From: Salinisphaera orenii subsp. halophila YIM 95161
Lineage (GTDB): Bacteria > Pseudomonadota > Gammaproteobacteria > Nevskiales > Salinisphaeraceae
Assembly (NCBI RefSeq): GCF_003732545.1
Contig: NZ_AYKF01000143.1
Coordinates: 1-64,000 of the forward strand
Reading direction: 5' to 3'
DNA length: 64,000 nucleotides
Part shown: positions 30,423-37,811 of the stretch, in pieces
Layout: every line of letters starts with the position of its first letter
Position numbering within the stretch: the stretch's first letter is position 1
Translations under genes and position numbers: made by a program
The notes under the pieces: model-generated
What the model was told of the DNA's origin: nothing
Seen by the model: the letters and a program-made list of their open reading frames with translations, nothing else
Database searches by the model: none

Positions 30423-32033
30423 ATGCATACACTCGCGCGGAAGCTGGGGCTGAAGACCGATCCGACGATCTTCTTCGCCTCCGCCGGCATCATGGTGGTA
30501 TTTCTTGCTGCCCTGCTCGTGGCCCCCGGGCCCATCGGCGACGCCTTCGGCGCCGGCCGGACCTGGATCGTCACCAATCTCGGCTGGTTCTTCATCCTGG
30601 GCGTGACCAGCTGGGTCGCCTTCCTGCTCTGGGTCGCACTGAGCCGCTACGGCGCGATCCGGCTCGGCGGCAACGACGCCAGGCCGGACTACGGCAACAT
30701 CTCCTGGTTCACCATGCTGTTCGCCGGCGGCATCGGCACGGTACTGATGTTCTGGGGCGTGGCCGAACCGATGTCGCACTTCGCGACCCCGCCACGACCG
30801 GACGTCGAGCCGTTCTCGGTGCAGGCCGCGGACGATGCGATGGGTTTCGCGATCTACCATCTGGGTCTGCACACCTGGGCGATCTTCACCCTGCCCGGCC
30901 TGGCCTTCGCGTACTTCATCTACCGCTACAAGCTGCCGATGCGTTTCAGCTCGGTCTTCTACTCGCTGATCGGTGATCGCATCTACGGCCCGATCGGCAA
31001 GACGCTGGATATCTTTGCCGTGCTTGGCACCCTGTTCGGTGTCGCCGTGTCGATCGGTCTGGGCACCCAGCAGATCAACGCCGGCCTGACCGAACTGATG
31101 GGCGTGCCCGACAGCGTCACCACCAAGGTGCTGATCATCGCGGCCCTCACCGCGGTGGCGACCTGCTCGATCGTCGCGGGGCTGGATTCCGGCGTGAAGC
31201 TGCTGTCGAACATCAACATCGGCATGGCGGTCGGCCTGATGATCTTTGTGCTGGTGACAGGCTCGACCGTGTTCCTGCTGCGCGCCATCGTCGAGACCTT
31301 CGGGATCTACATCACCAACATACTGCCGATGGCGTTCTGGAACGACGCGCTGGCTGAATACACGCACGAGGAAGGCGGCTGGGGCTGGCAGGGCGGCTGG
31401 ACCGTCTTCTACTGGGCCTGGACGGTGACCTGGTCGCCGTTCATCGGCATCTTCGTGGCGCGCATTTCCCGCGGCCGCACGATCCGCGAGTTCGTGCTGG
31501 GGGTGCTGTTCGCGCCGTCCGTCTTCACGCTGGTGTGGTTCGCCATATTCGGCTGGTCGGCGATGGAGATCGACGGCATCGGTGCGGACGCCCGTGCTGC
31601 TCTAGGGGCGCAGGCGGGCCAGATATCGGACGCGGTGGCCAACAGCATCCCGCTGGCGATGTTCGCCTTCTTCGAGAATTTCCCGTTCACGACGCTGATC
31701 CAGGGCCTGGCCGTGGTGATCGTGGCGATATTCTTCGCCACCTCGTCGGACTCCGCCTCGCTGGTCGTGGACATGCTCTGCACCGGTGAACCCGACGCCG
31801 GGCCCGTGCACCAGCGCATGTTCTGGGGCATCTCCGAAGGCGTGCTGGCGGCGATGCTGATCGTGCTCGCCGGCGAGGCAGGCCTCACCGCGCTTCAGCA
31901 GGTGATCACCGTCATCGGGCTGCCGATCTTCATTCTGGTCTTCGGCATGATGTTCGCGCTCATGCGCGGGCTGTCGCAGGAGGATCTCAGCGAGATCACC
32001 GTCGGCAAGCCGCCCAGCGTCGAGCAGCTCTAG
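30423..32033 (+). CDS. BCCT-family betaine/carnitine/choline-type transporter
   Basis: A 536-residue inner-membrane carrier with about 12 spans. Family blocks include the glycine-rich MLFAGGIGTVLMFWGVAEP, then IYHLGLHTWAIFTLPGLAFA, GLGTQQINAGL, and the signature region FYWAWTVTWSPFIGIFVA followed by RISRGRTIREF. BCCT carriers import betaines, choline, carnitine or DMSP, mostly driven by sodium. In the signature the usual second Trp (YWAWW) is YWAWT. The start at 30423 follows GGGAGAA. It is monocistronic. The DMSP-lyase-like gene at 38380 makes DMSP one possible substrate, but that is inference only. Confidence 0.93.
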   Translation: MHTLARKLGLKTDPTIFFASAGIMVVFLAALLVAPGPIGDAFGAGRTWIVTNLGWFFILGVTSWVAFLLWVALSRYGAIRLGGNDARPDYGNISWFTMLFAGGIGTVLMFWGVAEPMSHFATPPRPDVEPFSVQAADDAMGFAIYHLGLHTWAIFTLPGLAFAYFIYRYKLPMRFSSVFYSLIGDRIYGPIGKTLDIFAVLGTLFGVAVSIGLGTQQINAGLTELMGVPDSVTTKVLIIAALTAVATCSIVAGLDSGVKLLSNINIGMAVGLMIFVLVTGSTVFLLRAIVETFGIYITNILPMAFWNDALAEYTHEEGGWGWQGGWTVFYWAWTVTWSPFIGIFVARISRGRTIREFVLGVLFAPSVFTLVWFAIFGWSAMEIDGIGADARAALGAQAGQISDAVANSIPLAMFAFFENFPFTTLIQGLAVVIVAIFFATSSDSASLVVDMLCTGEPDAGPVHQRMFWGISEGVLAAMLIVLAGEAGLTALQQVITVIGLPIFILVFGMMFALMRGLSQEDLSEITVGKPPSVEQL

Positions 32034-32043
32034 GCCGGTCGCA

Positions 32044-32079
32044 GCGGGCGGCGGGCCGTGACGATCACCCGCCGCCCGC
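32044..32079 (+). terminator. Strong GC hairpin after the BCCT gene
   Basis: GCGGGCGGCGGG pairs perfectly over 12 bp with CCCGCCGCCCGC, with a 12-base loop, starting 10 bases after the stop codon. There is no U tract, so it may be a 3'-end stabiliser or a factor-assisted stop rather than a classical intrinsic terminator. Confidence 0.55.
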
Positions 32080-32339
32080 CTGGCGATGGCTTTCACGGCC
32101 CGCCATCTCGGAATCCACGGTCCCGACAATTCCCCACACGTCAGTCGAGGTCACGGAACCCCAAAGCGCGCCCTGCCTCACACACGAAGTGCAACCGGCC
32201 CGCCATGTACCGCCCGATCGCAGCCACGGCGGAACTCGAATCGCATCGTCGTAGCCCGTCGCCCCGAATTTATTTTTCATCGACGCGATCATGCCGCCAT
32301 GAATCGGCATAGAATCGATTAAAACCACAGGAGGTGGTC

Positions 32340-32480
32340 ATGGCCCGAGTGAACTACACGTTCGAAAAGCAGCAGCGGGCGGCCAACAAGAGCCGTCAGC
32401 AGGAAGAAAAGCGCAACAAGCGGCACGAGCGCCGACAGAATGCGCGGCACGCGTCCGCCACGACGGAGGATCTGTCATGA
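32340..32480 (+). CDS. Tiny basic protein, first of an overlapping pair
   Basis: 46 residues, preceded by a very strong AGGAGGTGG site. It begins MARVNYTFEKQQRAANKSRQ and continues with QEEKRNKRHERRQN; nearly half of the residues are charged, mostly basic, forming one predicted helix. I recall small proteins with this MARxNYxFEKRQ opening in proteobacteria, without any assigned function. Its stop overlaps the next start as ATGA, so the two are probably translationally coupled. The charge suggests RNA or ribosome binding, which is inference. Confidence 0.75.
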   Translation: MARVNYTFEKQQRAANKSRQQEEKRNKRHERRQNARHASATTEDLS

Positions 32481-32596
32481 GCAAAGGCATGGACCGCAAG
32501 AAAGGCGAGAAGAAAAAGCCCACACGCACGCTCAAGGAAAAGCGTGCCGCCAAGGCCGACGCTCGGGGCAAGGGGCCGAAGGGGCTGCTCGACTGA
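32477..32596 (+). CDS. Tiny lysine-rich protein, second of an overlapping pair
   Basis: 39 residues, starting inside the stop of the previous gene (ATGA). It reads MSKGMDRKKGEKKKPTRTLK followed by EKRAAKADARGKG. It is lysine-rich and probably unfolded until bound to nucleic acid or a partner. Similar short KKPxxTLKEKRAxK proteins exist in other gammaproteobacteria, as far as I recall, with no known role. It has no independent ribosome binding site, which supports coupling. Confidence 0.7.
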   Translation: MSKGMDRKKGEKKKPTRTLKEKRAAKADARGKGPKGLLD

Positions 32597-32684
32597 TCGG
32601 GCCCGGCCGTCCCGAACGGCACTGATCCAGGCCGCGGCACCCGCGGCCTGTGCCATGCGACGCGCTGGAAACGGCGCGTCCGCG

Positions 32685-34499
32685 TCAGCTCAATGCGACC
32701 GGCTCACTGGAACGGACCCAGTCGTGGAGCGCATCGGCGGTCAACGGCCGGGCGAATAAGTAGCCCTGGGCCTGTTCGCAGCCCCAGTCGAGAAGCAGCC
32801 TCAGGGTCGCTTGGTTCTCGACGCCCTCCGCGACGATGCGGTAATCCAGATCGTGTGCGAGGCGAACGATCGCCCGCGTGAGCACCTGCCCGCGTTCGTC
32901 GCGATCGAGCGTCTGCACGAAGCGCCGGTCGATCTTGATCTTGCCGGCATTGAGTTTCTGCAGATAGGCCAAATTGCAGTAGCCGGTACCGAAGTCGTCG
33001 ATCGCGGTCGTGACACCGATCGCATGTAGTTGTTCGAGTCTGGGCACGGCGGCATCGAGGTCGTCGATGAGCGTGCTCTCGGTGAACTCGACCTCGAGAC
33101 TGTCACCCGGCAGCGCATGCCTGCGCAGATGCGCGTCAACGCGTTCGACGATCGCCTCGTCGGCGATATCGTGGGCCGAAAGATTGACCGCGACCGGCAG
33201 CGTGAGCCCGCGCCGACGCCATGCGGCATTCTGCGCCAGCGCGGTATCGAGCACCCAATCGGTGAGCGGCCGCATCAGCGCGGTGCGCTCGGCGGCATCG
33301 ATGAGCTCCGCCGGTGAAACGAAGCCGAGCACCGGATGCTGCCACCGCAGCAGCGCCTCGACGCCGACGCAGTCACCACGGGCGACATCGACCTTGGGCT
33401 GATATTCCAGATACAGCTCGTCGCCCGCCTCCAGCGCGCCCCGCAGATCGGTCAGCAGGCGAACCCGGCGCTGGCGACGGGCCTCGCCCGCCGGCTCGTA
33501 GTAGCACCAGCAGCAATCGCTTTCCCAGGCGTCGTCCGCCGCCGCCGACGCCCGGCGCAGAATCTCGGCGGCATCGATGTCGGCCTCGTCGCCCGCATCG
33601 ATCCGGGTGACGCCCATGACCGTATCGGGCGCGAGAAGGATACCGATCTCCGAGTCGAAAGGCTGACGCAGGGTCTTCATCAACCGATACAGATAGTCCC
33701 GAGTGCGTTCGTCGGGCTGCTCGCGCAGCAGCACACCGAAGCGGAACAGCCCGATGCGATAGATCGGGTGCGCGTGGCCGAGCGCGTCCGCCAGCCGCTC
33801 GATGCATTCCGCGATGAACCGCTCGGTGTGCTGGTAACCCAGCACCTGGATCAGGTCGTGCATCTGCCGCGGCATCGCGACATCGACCACGCCCAGCAGC
33901 GACGCGTGGGAGTCGCCCGCTGTGGGGGACCGCCGCAACGCGGTGCCGAGCGTCTCCAGCAGCCGCTGGCGCGTGAAGATCCCGGTGGCGGCATCCAGAT
34001 AACCCGCCGATTCGCGCATGCGGACCCAGCCGCTCACGAGCGCGGCCAGATCCACGAGCGTCTGCGTCTGCTCGACGCCGAAGTCGGGTTGCGGCTCCCG
34101 GCTCATCACGCACAGCGTGCCCAGGCTGTAACCGTCGATCGTGCGAATGGGCGCCCCCGCATAGAAACGGACATGCGGCGGCTGCGCCACGAAGGGATTG
34201 TCCGCGAACCGATCGTCGGCAACGAGGTCGGGGACGACCATGACCTCATCGGCCTCGATCGCGTGGGCGCAGAACGAGTGGGCGCGCGGCGTACCGAGCA
34301 GCTCGACGCCCACACCCGCCTTGAACCACTGCCGGCTCGCATCGACCAGGGTGACCAGGCTGACGGGCATATCCAGCAGGCGCGCGGCCAGGCCGGTGGC
34401 GCGATCCAGTACCGGATCGCGCGGCGCGTGAATCAGATCGAGGCGGTGAAGCGCGTTCAGCCGCTCCGCTTCGCGCGTGGAAGCGTGTGACGTACTCAT
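32685..34499 (-). CDS. GAF-(degenerate GGDEF)-EAL c-di-GMP phosphodiesterase
   Basis: A 604-residue cytoplasmic protein. An N-terminal GAF domain (about 20-165; SLVTLVDASRQWFKAGVGVE, HSFCAHAI, GAPIRTIDGYSLGTLCVM) senses a small ligand or redox state. A central GGDEF-like domain (about 170-335) lacks the GGDEF motif and should be inactive. The C-terminal EAL domain keeps its catalytic set: GVEALLRW, the Asn of VNLSAHDI, Glu in EFTEST, DDFGTGY, KIDRRFV and AEGVE, and QGYLFARPL at the end. It should degrade c-di-GMP to pGpG. It is divergent from the cyclase at 35130. Confidence 0.93.
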   Translation of the reverse strand: MSTSHASTREAERLNALHRLDLIHAPRDPVLDRATGLAARLLDMPVSLVTLVDASRQWFKAGVGVELLGTPRAHSFCAHAIEADEVMVVPDLVADDRFADNPFVAQPPHVRFYAGAPIRTIDGYSLGTLCVMSREPQPDFGVEQTQTLVDLAALVSGWVRMRESAGYLDAATGIFTRQRLLETLGTALRRSPTAGDSHASLLGVVDVAMPRQMHDLIQVLGYQHTERFIAECIERLADALGHAHPIYRIGLFRFGVLLREQPDERTRDYLYRLMKTLRQPFDSEIGILLAPDTVMGVTRIDAGDEADIDAAEILRRASAAADDAWESDCCWCYYEPAGEARRQRRVRLLTDLRGALEAGDELYLEYQPKVDVARGDCVGVEALLRWQHPVLGFVSPAELIDAAERTALMRPLTDWVLDTALAQNAAWRRRGLTLPVAVNLSAHDIADEAIVERVDAHLRRHALPGDSLEVEFTESTLIDDLDAAVPRLEQLHAIGVTTAIDDFGTGYCNLAYLQKLNAGKIKIDRRFVQTLDRDERGQVLTRAIVRLAHDLDYRIVAEGVENQATLRLLLDWGCEQAQGYLFARPLTADALHDWVRSSEPVALS

Positions 34500-35129
34500 G
34501 ATCGAGCCGGTTTCAGGATACGGTGCCTCGGTAGAACTACGGAAGCGGCGTTTCTTTCATATTCAGGGGCGGCCTTTCAACCCTGGCGCTCAACAATGTA
34601 TCGGCGCTTCGGCCGCCGACATGACCGGTCCGCGGTATTCGTGTTGCCACGGTATGTCATCTGGCAGATCGAATGTGCCACGCATGCGCCTGTTCATGAA
34701 CGCGACGCCACGCCCGTCCCGCCGCGAGATCACTAGCCGAAAACCGCGCCCGAGCCCCGGCGCCGAGCGGGCAGGCAAAGGCCTCACTGATTCGTGGGCG
34801 CTGATCGAACATCCCGTGTGCGGCGAGGTCACGCGCCCGGTACGTCGGGCAGACCGGTGCCGACTGGCGAGCGACACGGCAGGCCGCACTGCGGGCGCGT
34901 CGTGCGTGCGCCTGTTGCGAAGGCGGGCGCGCATTCAACGTGCGCTCGCGGTATGCTCTGGTTAGGGTATGGGACCGCGACCGCCCACCAGCGAGGCGCA
35001 GCGCACGGCATGGGCGGCGCAGCGGCCCTGGGTGCGTGGCGGATAGGCGAGATATTCAACGGCTCTACAGCGCACATCAACGAGGCGCGAAGAGCGCGCG
35101 CCGACCTGGCGGGATGGACGACTATCGCG
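34500..35129. other. Divergent region between phosphodiesterase and cyclase
   Basis: 630 bases. No gene with family support or a good start is visible. The frame of the cyclase stays open upstream of 35130 but loses hydrophobic character. Confidence 0.4.
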
Positions 35130-36305
35130 ATGAAGACATTCGCCGACCGAGTCTGCCATTGGTCTCGCTTCATGCTCGTGGGGCACGCCGAGACCCCGGC
35201 CCATCGCATGCATCTGGTGTTCCTGTTCGCGGTGGCCATCGGCTGCTTCGCCGGCGCGGCCCTCAATTACTTCGGCGCCATCACCCATCTGCTCTACGTC
35301 GCCATACTGACGATCTTCGGCCTGGTGGTGCTGGCCATGTGGTGGCATGCGCGTCGCTACGAACAGGCGCAGCGCATCGCCGTGATCTTCTGCGCGGGCG
35401 CGGTGTTCGCGATCCTGCCGTTGAACTGGATCTTCAATCAGGGCCTGGACGGGCCGAGCCTGATGATTCTGGTCGTGGTGGCCGGCTATGCCTTCGGTGC
35501 CCTGGTAATCCGCCCCTGGCAGCGCGTCCTGCTGATGGCGTGCTTCGTGATCGTGCCGAGCGCTCTCATCGGCGCCGATTATCTCTGGCCGGGCTGGACG
35601 CCGACCTACGCCTCGCGCGAACTCCAGGCGATCGACGCCGCGGTGACCTACTACATCTGTGTCGCGCTGCAGTTCGCGCTGATCAGCGGCTTCTTTCGAC
35701 GCTTTCGCAGCGAGCAGCGCCTGATTCAGGAATACGCCGAGCAGCTGCGCGAGACCTCCCGGCTGGACAGCCTCACCGGGCTGCTCAACCACGGCGCCTT
35801 CTATTCGGCGCTGGACGCGGCGATCTCGGGCGAGCAGCAGCCGAGACACCACTGCGCCCTGGTCTTGTACGATCTCGATCACTTCAAGCGGATCAACGAC
35901 AGCCGCGGCCATCTCTATGGCGACGAGACGCTGCGCCGGTTCGCGCGTCTTCTGGAGGATACCGCCCGGACGTTCGGCGCCACCGCCGGACGCTGTGGCG
36001 GCGAGGAGTTCGCGGTGCTGCTTCGCCCGGCCTCCTCGTCCACGGTCCAGGCCATGGACGACGCGCTCCGCGCCCGCTGCGCGGCCCAGCCGCTGGCGCA
36101 CGGCGTGATCCGCGTCAGCGGCGGCGTGGCCTTTTCCTCCGCGGACACGACGATCCGCTGGATGGAGCGGGCCGACGAGGCGCTCTATACCGCCAAGACC
36201 CGCGGACGGGATCGAACGCTGTTCGACCCCGTCGCTGCCGCCGATCCGGGCGCCATCGCCGAACCGATGCACGAGCTGCAGCGTCGCGTCGCCGCCGGCT
36301 CCTGA
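35130..36305 (+). CDS. Membrane-bound diguanylate cyclase
   Basis: A 391-residue protein. About six membrane spans (30-190) precede a short coiled region (SEQRLIQEYAEQLRETSRLD) and a GGDEF domain with GGEEF at 290-294. The substrate-site motif DLDHFKRINDSRGH is intact, so it should make c-di-GMP. There is no RxxD inhibitory site five residues before GGEEF, unlike the two other cyclases of this window, so it may escape product inhibition. Its membrane part does not resemble theirs. The ATG at 35130 has only a weak ribosome site. Confidence 0.9.
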   Translation: MKTFADRVCHWSRFMLVGHAETPAHRMHLVFLFAVAIGCFAGAALNYFGAITHLLYVAILTIFGLVVLAMWWHARRYEQAQRIAVIFCAGAVFAILPLNWIFNQGLDGPSLMILVVVAGYAFGALVIRPWQRVLLMACFVIVPSALIGADYLWPGWTPTYASRELQAIDAAVTYYICVALQFALISGFFRRFRSEQRLIQEYAEQLRETSRLDSLTGLLNHGAFYSALDAAISGEQQPRHHCALVLYDLDHFKRINDSRGHLYGDETLRRFARLLEDTARTFGATAGRCGGEEFAVLLRPASSSTVQAMDDALRARCAAQPLAHGVIRVSGGVAFSSADTTIRWMERADEALYTAKTRGRDRTLFDPVAAADPGAIAEPMHELQRRVAAGS

Positions 36306-36710
36306 GCCGGGGCGCGGGCCGGTCGCGGGCCGGCGCTTGTCGACGCACAAGGTCTTGGCGCAGCTCGGCGCTCGGCGGAGCAGACCGCCCAATCGAGACC
36401 GGCCATACCTCTATCGGCGGCGATAGGATGGCTTACGCACGAGCGCTCGCGGCCGACGTCGACGACCACCGGCTACGCCGCTATGGTCGGCGGCGGCCTG
36501 GCGCGCATTGAACGCCGGCACGACAATGCTTCAGTGAGGCGCCCTTCACTGCCCCGTCCGGCCGACTGCAAACGTAATCCGCGAGCCCAACGCGCCGCCG
36601 CCCTCGGGCCACATGCCCGCAACCAGCGCGGAACGACCCACTCGTCTTCCGCGCGGCGCCATCCCAAGCGCGGTATGGTAACCCTACGAACGGGTCGGGG
36701 GCCCCGAGGG
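36306..36710. other. Gap between two cyclase genes
   Basis: 405 bases with no supported gene. The next cyclase could start at 36675 instead of 36711. Confidence 0.4.
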
Positions 36711-37811
36711 ATGCCGAGAGCCAGTCACAAGGCACACGAAGGCTTTGAAGCACATCATCGTCGCGCGGTGCTGCAGGTGCTGCTCGTGCTCACCGCCGTC
36801 TGCGGTGCCGCGTACGTGGTGATCAACCTGCGCGCCGAACAGTACGTGCTGATGGTGATCGAACTGTTGATGACGGTGTTTGCCTGCACGCTTTTGTTCG
36901 TCATCCGCGGCACCCGCCATCTCAAGGCCTGGACGATCGTCTTCATCATCCCCTTCTATTCGGTGATGATGTACGGGTTCTACAGTCCGGAGACCGAAAT
37001 CACGGTCTTCGGCTGGGTCCTGGTGATACCGCTGCTCGCGCACCTTCTGCTGGGACGCCGCCTCGGCGCGGCGGTCTCGGTGTTCTTCGTCGGGGTGGCC
37101 GGCGTGCTTTTCCTGTATCGCTTCGGCGGCGACGCGATCGTGCAGGCCCCCGGCTCTATCGCCAACATTGCCATGGCCACCGCGACCGTGTTCGCGCTCT
37201 CGCATTTCTACGAGGCCAGCCGCGAGCAGGCCGAACGTAGGCTTTCGGACATGGCGATGACGGATTCGCTGACCGGCCTGCCCAATCGGGCGTATCTGGA
37301 GCAGCTGTTCGAAGACGAAAAGCAGTGGCATGTGACCTCGGGGACGCCCTTGTCGCTGCTCATGGTCGATCTCGATTTCTTCAAGCAGGTCAATGATCGT
37401 CACGGGCACGACGCCGGAGATGCCGCCCTGCGCGATATAGCCGGCGTCATGCGCGACAACCTTCGCGAGCACGACACCGTCGGCCGGCTCGGCGGCGAGG
37501 AGTTCGCCATTCTGCTGTCCGACACCGACGTCCATCAGGGGCTGATGGTCGCGGAGGGATTGCGCCATGCCATCGCATCACACGGCTGCCGGCACGAGGC
37601 GCATATGATCCGCCTCACGGCCAGCCTCGGCGTGGCGACGCTGTCCCTGCCGGAAGAGACGTTCGCCGACCTGCTGCGCCGCGCCGACCACTGCCTCTAT
37701 CGCGCCAAACGCGCCGGCCGCAATCGCGTGGTCGCCAACACCACGACGGCCGTGCCGAGCGAAACGACGCCGTCGATTCACCCCCACGACGACGCGACCT
37801 CGCCGAAGTGA
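36711..37811 (+). CDS. Diguanylate cyclase, paralogue of the 14.7-kb gene
   Basis: A 366-residue protein. The membrane sensor spans about residues 20-165, the GGDEF domain follows, with GGEEF at 261-265 and the inhibitory site REHD at 252-255. It aligns nearly position by position with the protein at 14710-15729 (MxRAS start, HLLLGRR at 111-117, SHFYEA, LTGLPNRA at 188-195). This match is why I chose the ATG at 36711 over 36675. A tail after the domain is rich in Thr and Ser. Its stop codon is about 20 bases before a hexanucleotide satellite. Confidence 0.9.
   Translation: MPRASHKAHEGFEAHHRRAVLQVLLVLTAVCGAAYVVINLRAEQYVLMVIELLMTVFACTLLFVIRGTRHLKAWTIVFIIPFYSVMMYGFYSPETEITVFGWVLVIPLLAHLLLGRRLGAAVSVFFVGVAGVLFLYRFGGDAIVQAPGSIANIAMATATVFALSHFYEASREQAERRLSDMAMTDSLTGLPNRAYLEQLFEDEKQWHVTSGTPLSLLMVDLDFFKQVNDRHGHDAGDAALRDIAGVMRDNLREHDTVGRLGGEEFAILLSDTDVHQGLMVAEGLRHAIASHGCRHEAHMIRLTASLGVATLSLPEETFADLLRRADHCLYRAKRAGRNRVVANTTTAVPSETTPSIHPHDDATSPK

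Follow-up and report, generated by a model that had tools for sequence, protein, structure and literature searches.

Genes A and B, two overlapping frames on the plus strand of the 64,000-nt stretch of DNA analysed here (the window), are best explained as real, conserved small-protein genes, translationally coupled in this genome, whose products are putative RNA- or ribosome-binding accessory factors of a cold-shock, RNA-chaperone and ribosome-maturation network. We hold this explanation with slightly better than even confidence, and the likeliest reading of the pair is that it is a putative RNA- or ribosome-associated accessory pair. Binding to RNA or the ribosome is suggested by the charge of the two proteins and by the neighbours of their homologues. 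Small proteins associated with RNA or the ribosome are a poorly known group, to which A and B would thereby contribute candidates.

The gene pair and its ribosome sites

The features of the pair are as follows.

32329..32337, plus strand: ribosome site of gene A, AGGAGGTGG, with a spacing of 5 bases from AGGAGG to the ATG
32340..32480, plus strand: gene A, ATG start, 46 aa, beginning MARVNYTFEKQQ..., predicted single helix at 6-43
32465..32469, plus strand: ribosome site of gene B, GGAGG, inside gene A and 7 bases 5' of the ATG of B
32477..32480, plus strand: ATGA overlap (stop of A, start of B)
32477..32596, plus strand: gene B, ATG start, 39 aa, beginning MSKGMDRKKGEKKKPTRTLKEKRAAK..., low-confidence predicted helices at 5-10 and 19-31

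An earlier, sequence-only reading had proposed two coupled genes of 46 and 39 codons for strongly basic proteins, and both proposals were borne out, the calculated values being pI 10.9 and net charge +5.7 for A, and pI 10.6 and net charge +9.5 for B. Its description of the ribosome site of gene A as near-perfect and as among the strongest of the window also held good. AGGAGGTGG was observed once on the plus strand of the window and zero times on the minus strand, its pairing with the 16S tail (-13.5 kcal/mol) was bettered by one of 53 long ORFs when the best start of each was taken, and sites equal to it or better were found at 0.06% of the 4814 start triplets of the window. This site shows no change in G012, a genome of the same genus. 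The ribosome site of gene B (-9.5 kcal/mol) was equalled by 1.4% of the start triplets in the window. An alternative GTG at 32334 lies in frame with gene A, but the starts of the homologues fall at the position of the ATG. A simple scan found no promoter or terminator, and the window gave no matches to Rfam (gathering threshold) or in a tRNA scan.

High translation and abundance had been expected as well. The strong ribosome site speaks for this part of the reading, but codon adaptation, calculated with four ribosomal-protein ORFs of the same genome as reference, does not. The values of 0.682 for A and 0.570 for B were equalled by 30% and 53%, respectively, of random stretches of the same length from genes of the window. 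These values are ordinary for both genes, and codon adaptation thus gives no sign of abundance.

Selection, distribution and coupling

G012 carries the A-B pair in a likewise coupled form. Between the window and G012, the counts of synonymous and non-synonymous differences are 4 (30.7 sites) and 2 (107.3 sites) in gene A, the latter both within one codon, and 8 (25.3 sites) and 4 (88.7 sites) in gene B, where an in-frame 3-base deletion comes in addition. Since the differences are mostly synonymous, and since the A-B order recurs together with its overlap, A and B look like real genes. A second comparison (G043 with G035) gave 0 differences over the compared part, and is hence uninformative on selection. 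Residues N5, Y6, K10, Q12 and K24 of A were retained in both alignments, B retained S2, K3, K12, K13, E21, K22 and K26, and conserved motifs going beyond charge were recognised in A (NYxFEKRQ) and in B (MSKG-D-K and EKRAAK). Judged by these comparisons, the amino-acid sequence of A and B is under selection and is conserved past the class of the window.

Among 61 relative genomes, A was found in 19, B in 29 and both in 13, and in a class sample of 276 genomes the corresponding counts were 29, 46 and 16. The genus of the window has A in 2 and B in 9 of 14 genomes. A phylum sample of 397 genomes yielded A in 56 (27 of them outside the class of the window) and B in 35 (2 outside it), counts which are not strictly comparable, as A was searched there with another profile (A4). 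In one family outside the class, f190, 19 genomes of the phylum sample match A strongly; six of its A loci were inspected for their neighbours, and at one of these (L306) an RRM gene lies close to A. Named genomes, when scanned, gave at least 26 A loci, and among the matches listed gamma- or betaproteobacterial groups are named in 24 titles and just Proteobacteria in 2. All profiles were built from a selection of the observed sequences (15 for A1, 19 for A2, and the window sequence with 18 of the 26 named-genome loci for A4). Among plasmids, megablast with window positions 31000-34000 gave one record, matched by the transporter alone, and a search at the protein level with two queries, one like A and the other like B, gave no match.

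A lies immediately 5' of B in 9 of the 13 relatives that have both genes (window counted), and apart from it in the remaining 4. Coupled A-B was also observed at two MAG loci, of Wenzhouxiangella and Thioalkalivibrio (L106 and L117). An overlap of 4 bases is shared by the window and 9 of the 10 other coupled loci measured; in the tenth (G055) it is 8 bases. By this fixed order and the recurrent short overlap of stop and start, A-B is a translationally coupled gene pair as far as sequence can tell. Conserved pairing, which had been named as a check on the pair, therefore holds among the relatives and in the two MAGs, but not across the class, where A and B are separated (on different contigs or by >70 kb) in all 15 genomes, other than that of the window, that have both genes. 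At L127, B lies 5' of A on the same strand and without overlap. A pattern search for traces of A ahead of B elsewhere in the genus returned only 1 of 7 loci. At locus L007 of G017, an early TAG stop interrupts the B-like frame that comes after A.

Predicted structure and family identity

The structural model of A has a mean pLDDT of 79.7 and a pTM of 0.43 and consists of one long helix, with block means of 93 and 91 pLDDT over residues 11-30. That of B (mean pLDDT 68.4, pTM 0.27) shows short helices of low confidence. Lone basic stretches often come out as helices in such predictions, and the helix models consequently say little. Among solved structures, the profile of A matched no chain and that of B gave one match at chance level (E 2.1). 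Among the listed matches of searches in open-licence papers, we recognised no description of either family. We rate the pair as small basic accessory proteins, an already known class; no Pfam or NCBIfam model reaches its cut-off with A or B, and both families are without a model in these collections.

The SERF/4F5 small EDRK-rich factors of eukaryotes serve here as an analogue of A and B; they too are tiny and highly charged, a likeness in composition alone. Human SERF2 is described in PMC11565804 as partly disordered and as binding RNA G-quadruplexes. When 15 A members and 19 B members were compared with Pfam, seven weakly matching families were listed for the former, 4F5 not being one of them, and zero for the latter, which places neither A nor B in 4F5. 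The short, Lys/Arg-rich bacterial ribosomal proteins bS22 (Sra) and bTHX have their shortness and their richness in Lys and Arg in common with A and B, but families of this type are missing from the same Pfam matches. A weak alignment to homologues of A was given by the LB_289 family (NF047642, model length 106 positions) over residues 7-33 of one (E 0.0047) and 8-35 of another (E 0.028). Its best score of 17.3 bits against a cut-off of 80 leaves these homologues outside the family, and the A of the window did not match NF047642.

A pI above 10 suits any polyanion by composition alone, and the models predict no specific fold. A and B could accordingly be general polycations that sit on DNA, polyphosphate or other polyanions and have no specificity for RNA or the ribosome. 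We consider this rather unlikely, since the conserved motifs of both proteins exceed what charge would explain, and since the neighbours of the homologues are enriched for RNA-binding proteins and RIO kinases.

Neighbours of the homologues

On inspection by eye, the neighbours at A and B loci were observed to include cold-shock, RRM, DEAD-helicase, ArfB-like and RIO genes. Examples of each neighbour family were verified by Pfam or NCBIfam, the ArfB-like example as an RF-1 domain (Pfam) and the kinase as a RIO1-like member of the PA4780 family (NCBIfam, 443 bits against a cut-off of 350). We also performed unsupervised clustering, in which the families are not chosen, on 1838 ORFs from 117 loci, 257 of them near (<=600 bases from A/B) and 1581 far. 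For this sample 14 presumed near-duplicate loci were removed and other related loci kept, and ORFs overlapping A/B by >40 bases were skipped. Of 25 clusters tested for nearness, cold-shock proteins ranked at the top (8 near, 2 far; Fisher p 4.6e-6), followed by RRM (4 near, 1 far; p 0.0017), by an ORF that on visual inspection we take to run antisense to RIO, and by RIO itself.

A profile scan of 131 A/B loci, from which zero loci were dropped, placed 12 of 14 cold-shock (CSD), 12 of 15 RIO and 9 of 15 RRM matches near (<=1 kb), where near bases make up 13%. At 98 of the 131 loci the CSD, RRM and RIO profiles were all absent within 1 kb. The loci include kin (e.g. L191/L192 and L221/L226), and related genomes inflate the counts; two loci (L104 and L219) come from one genome, and the 26 named-genome loci have flanks of 5 kb against 10 kb for the others. 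Because the profiles had been seeded from those very loci, 20 new A loci were examined, one per genus from the 56 A-bearing genomes of the phylum sample, with four families fixed in advance. All matches at these loci were near (2/2 CSD, 1/1 RRM, 2/2 RIO and 1/1 DEAD, 6/6 in total, with 11% near bases); they were confined to 4 loci, leaving none at 16 of the 20. Enrichment of the DEAD helicase as a neighbour was not borne out among the 131 loci, with 4 of 17 matches near.

Csp, RRM and RIO genes beside the relatives of A and B are a hint that the pair helps to handle RNA or ribosomes. The cspA genes are small and frequently stand-alone, so the enrichment might instead be a by-stander effect in which small stand-alone genes adjoin other genes that are small and strongly expressed, cspA among them. 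However, 12 of the 15 detected copies of the RIO kinase gene, which is not small, lie near A/B, and A and B co-occur with RIO across genomes; a by-stander effect is unlikely on this evidence.

At four loci (L016, L017, L018 and L020, from G033, G038, G039 and G046), a frame just 3' of A encodes a conserved protein with a length of about 81 aa (MAKxxYxIRVIxKGREKDYFDFWRR...). The full sequence of two copies was read, and the single copy that was scanned had no Pfam match.

Link with RIO kinases and proposed mode of action

Rio is treated in PMC1821047. In the 276 genomes of the class sample, A and B were found together in 16 against 4.8 expected (p 4e-7), A and RIO in 13 against 4.9 (p 2e-4), and B and RIO in 18 against 7.8 (p 6e-5), by Fisher tests that ignore kinship. 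A and B were counted at E <= 0.01, and RIO was counted in the 47 genomes scoring >120 bits among 105 with a PF01163 match, the weaker matches being left out as they resemble other kinases. A RIO kinase gene lies within 1 kb of A/B at 12 of the 131 loci. Two conserved families that stand unusually often beside Csp, RRM and RIO genes may offer a handle on the role of bacterial RIO kinases.

The genome of the window (98.7% complete) gave no RIO1-domain match at E 1e-5, and with it no neighbourhood of a PA4780-type RIO kinase. This absence argues that the A-B pair is independent of RIO. It is doubtful, in our opinion, that the PA4780-type RIO kinase forms with A and B one bacterial module of small-subunit maturation or cold adaptation, in which the kinase would have the tiny proteins as its RNA-bound partners or as substrates, and of which genomes such as that of the window would keep the tiny proteins alone.

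For an RNA- or ribosome-associated accessory pair, we propose that ribosomes terminating on A would reinitiate at once on B, and this immediate restart would cause A and B to be made together. Both proteins would bind RNA or the ribosome through their Lys/Arg-rich helices, and would act beside Csp and RRM proteins and, if present, the PA4780-type RIO kinase. In the genome of the window, A and B would work without a RIO kinase.

Surroundings of the pair in the window

About 300 bases upstream of A, and in the same orientation, lies a BCCT transporter gene, and a GAF-GGDEF-EAL gene (Pfam) lies downstream of B in the opposite orientation. These neighbours are unrelated to RNA or ribosome biology, in contrast to the enrichment around the homologues. 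The association with ribosomes or RNA that the sequence-only reading had proposed receives indirect support from the neighbours of the homologues and from the co-occurrence of A, B and RIO, but not from the surroundings of the pair itself, nor from the 98 loci free of CSD, RRM and RIO. The lack of a RIO match in this genome, the separation of A and B in 4 relatives and across the class, the presence of A in just 2 of 14 genomes of the genus, the ordinary codon adaptation and the negative promoter and terminator scan likewise weigh against our explanation.

Several genomes have a RIO gene directly 3' of A, of B or of the A-B pair, on the same strand. It could be argued from this arrangement that A and B are mainly leader frames whose translation governs a downstream gene, e.g. 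the RIO kinase, and whose peptides do little. We regard this as very unlikely, because the amino-acid sequence is under selection and kept beyond the class, and because no long ORF on the same strand follows B in the window before the opposed EAL gene. Two ORFs adjoining the GAF-GGDEF-EAL gene resemble GGDEF proteins by eye, and the region from 32685 to 37811 is perhaps a c-di-GMP cluster.
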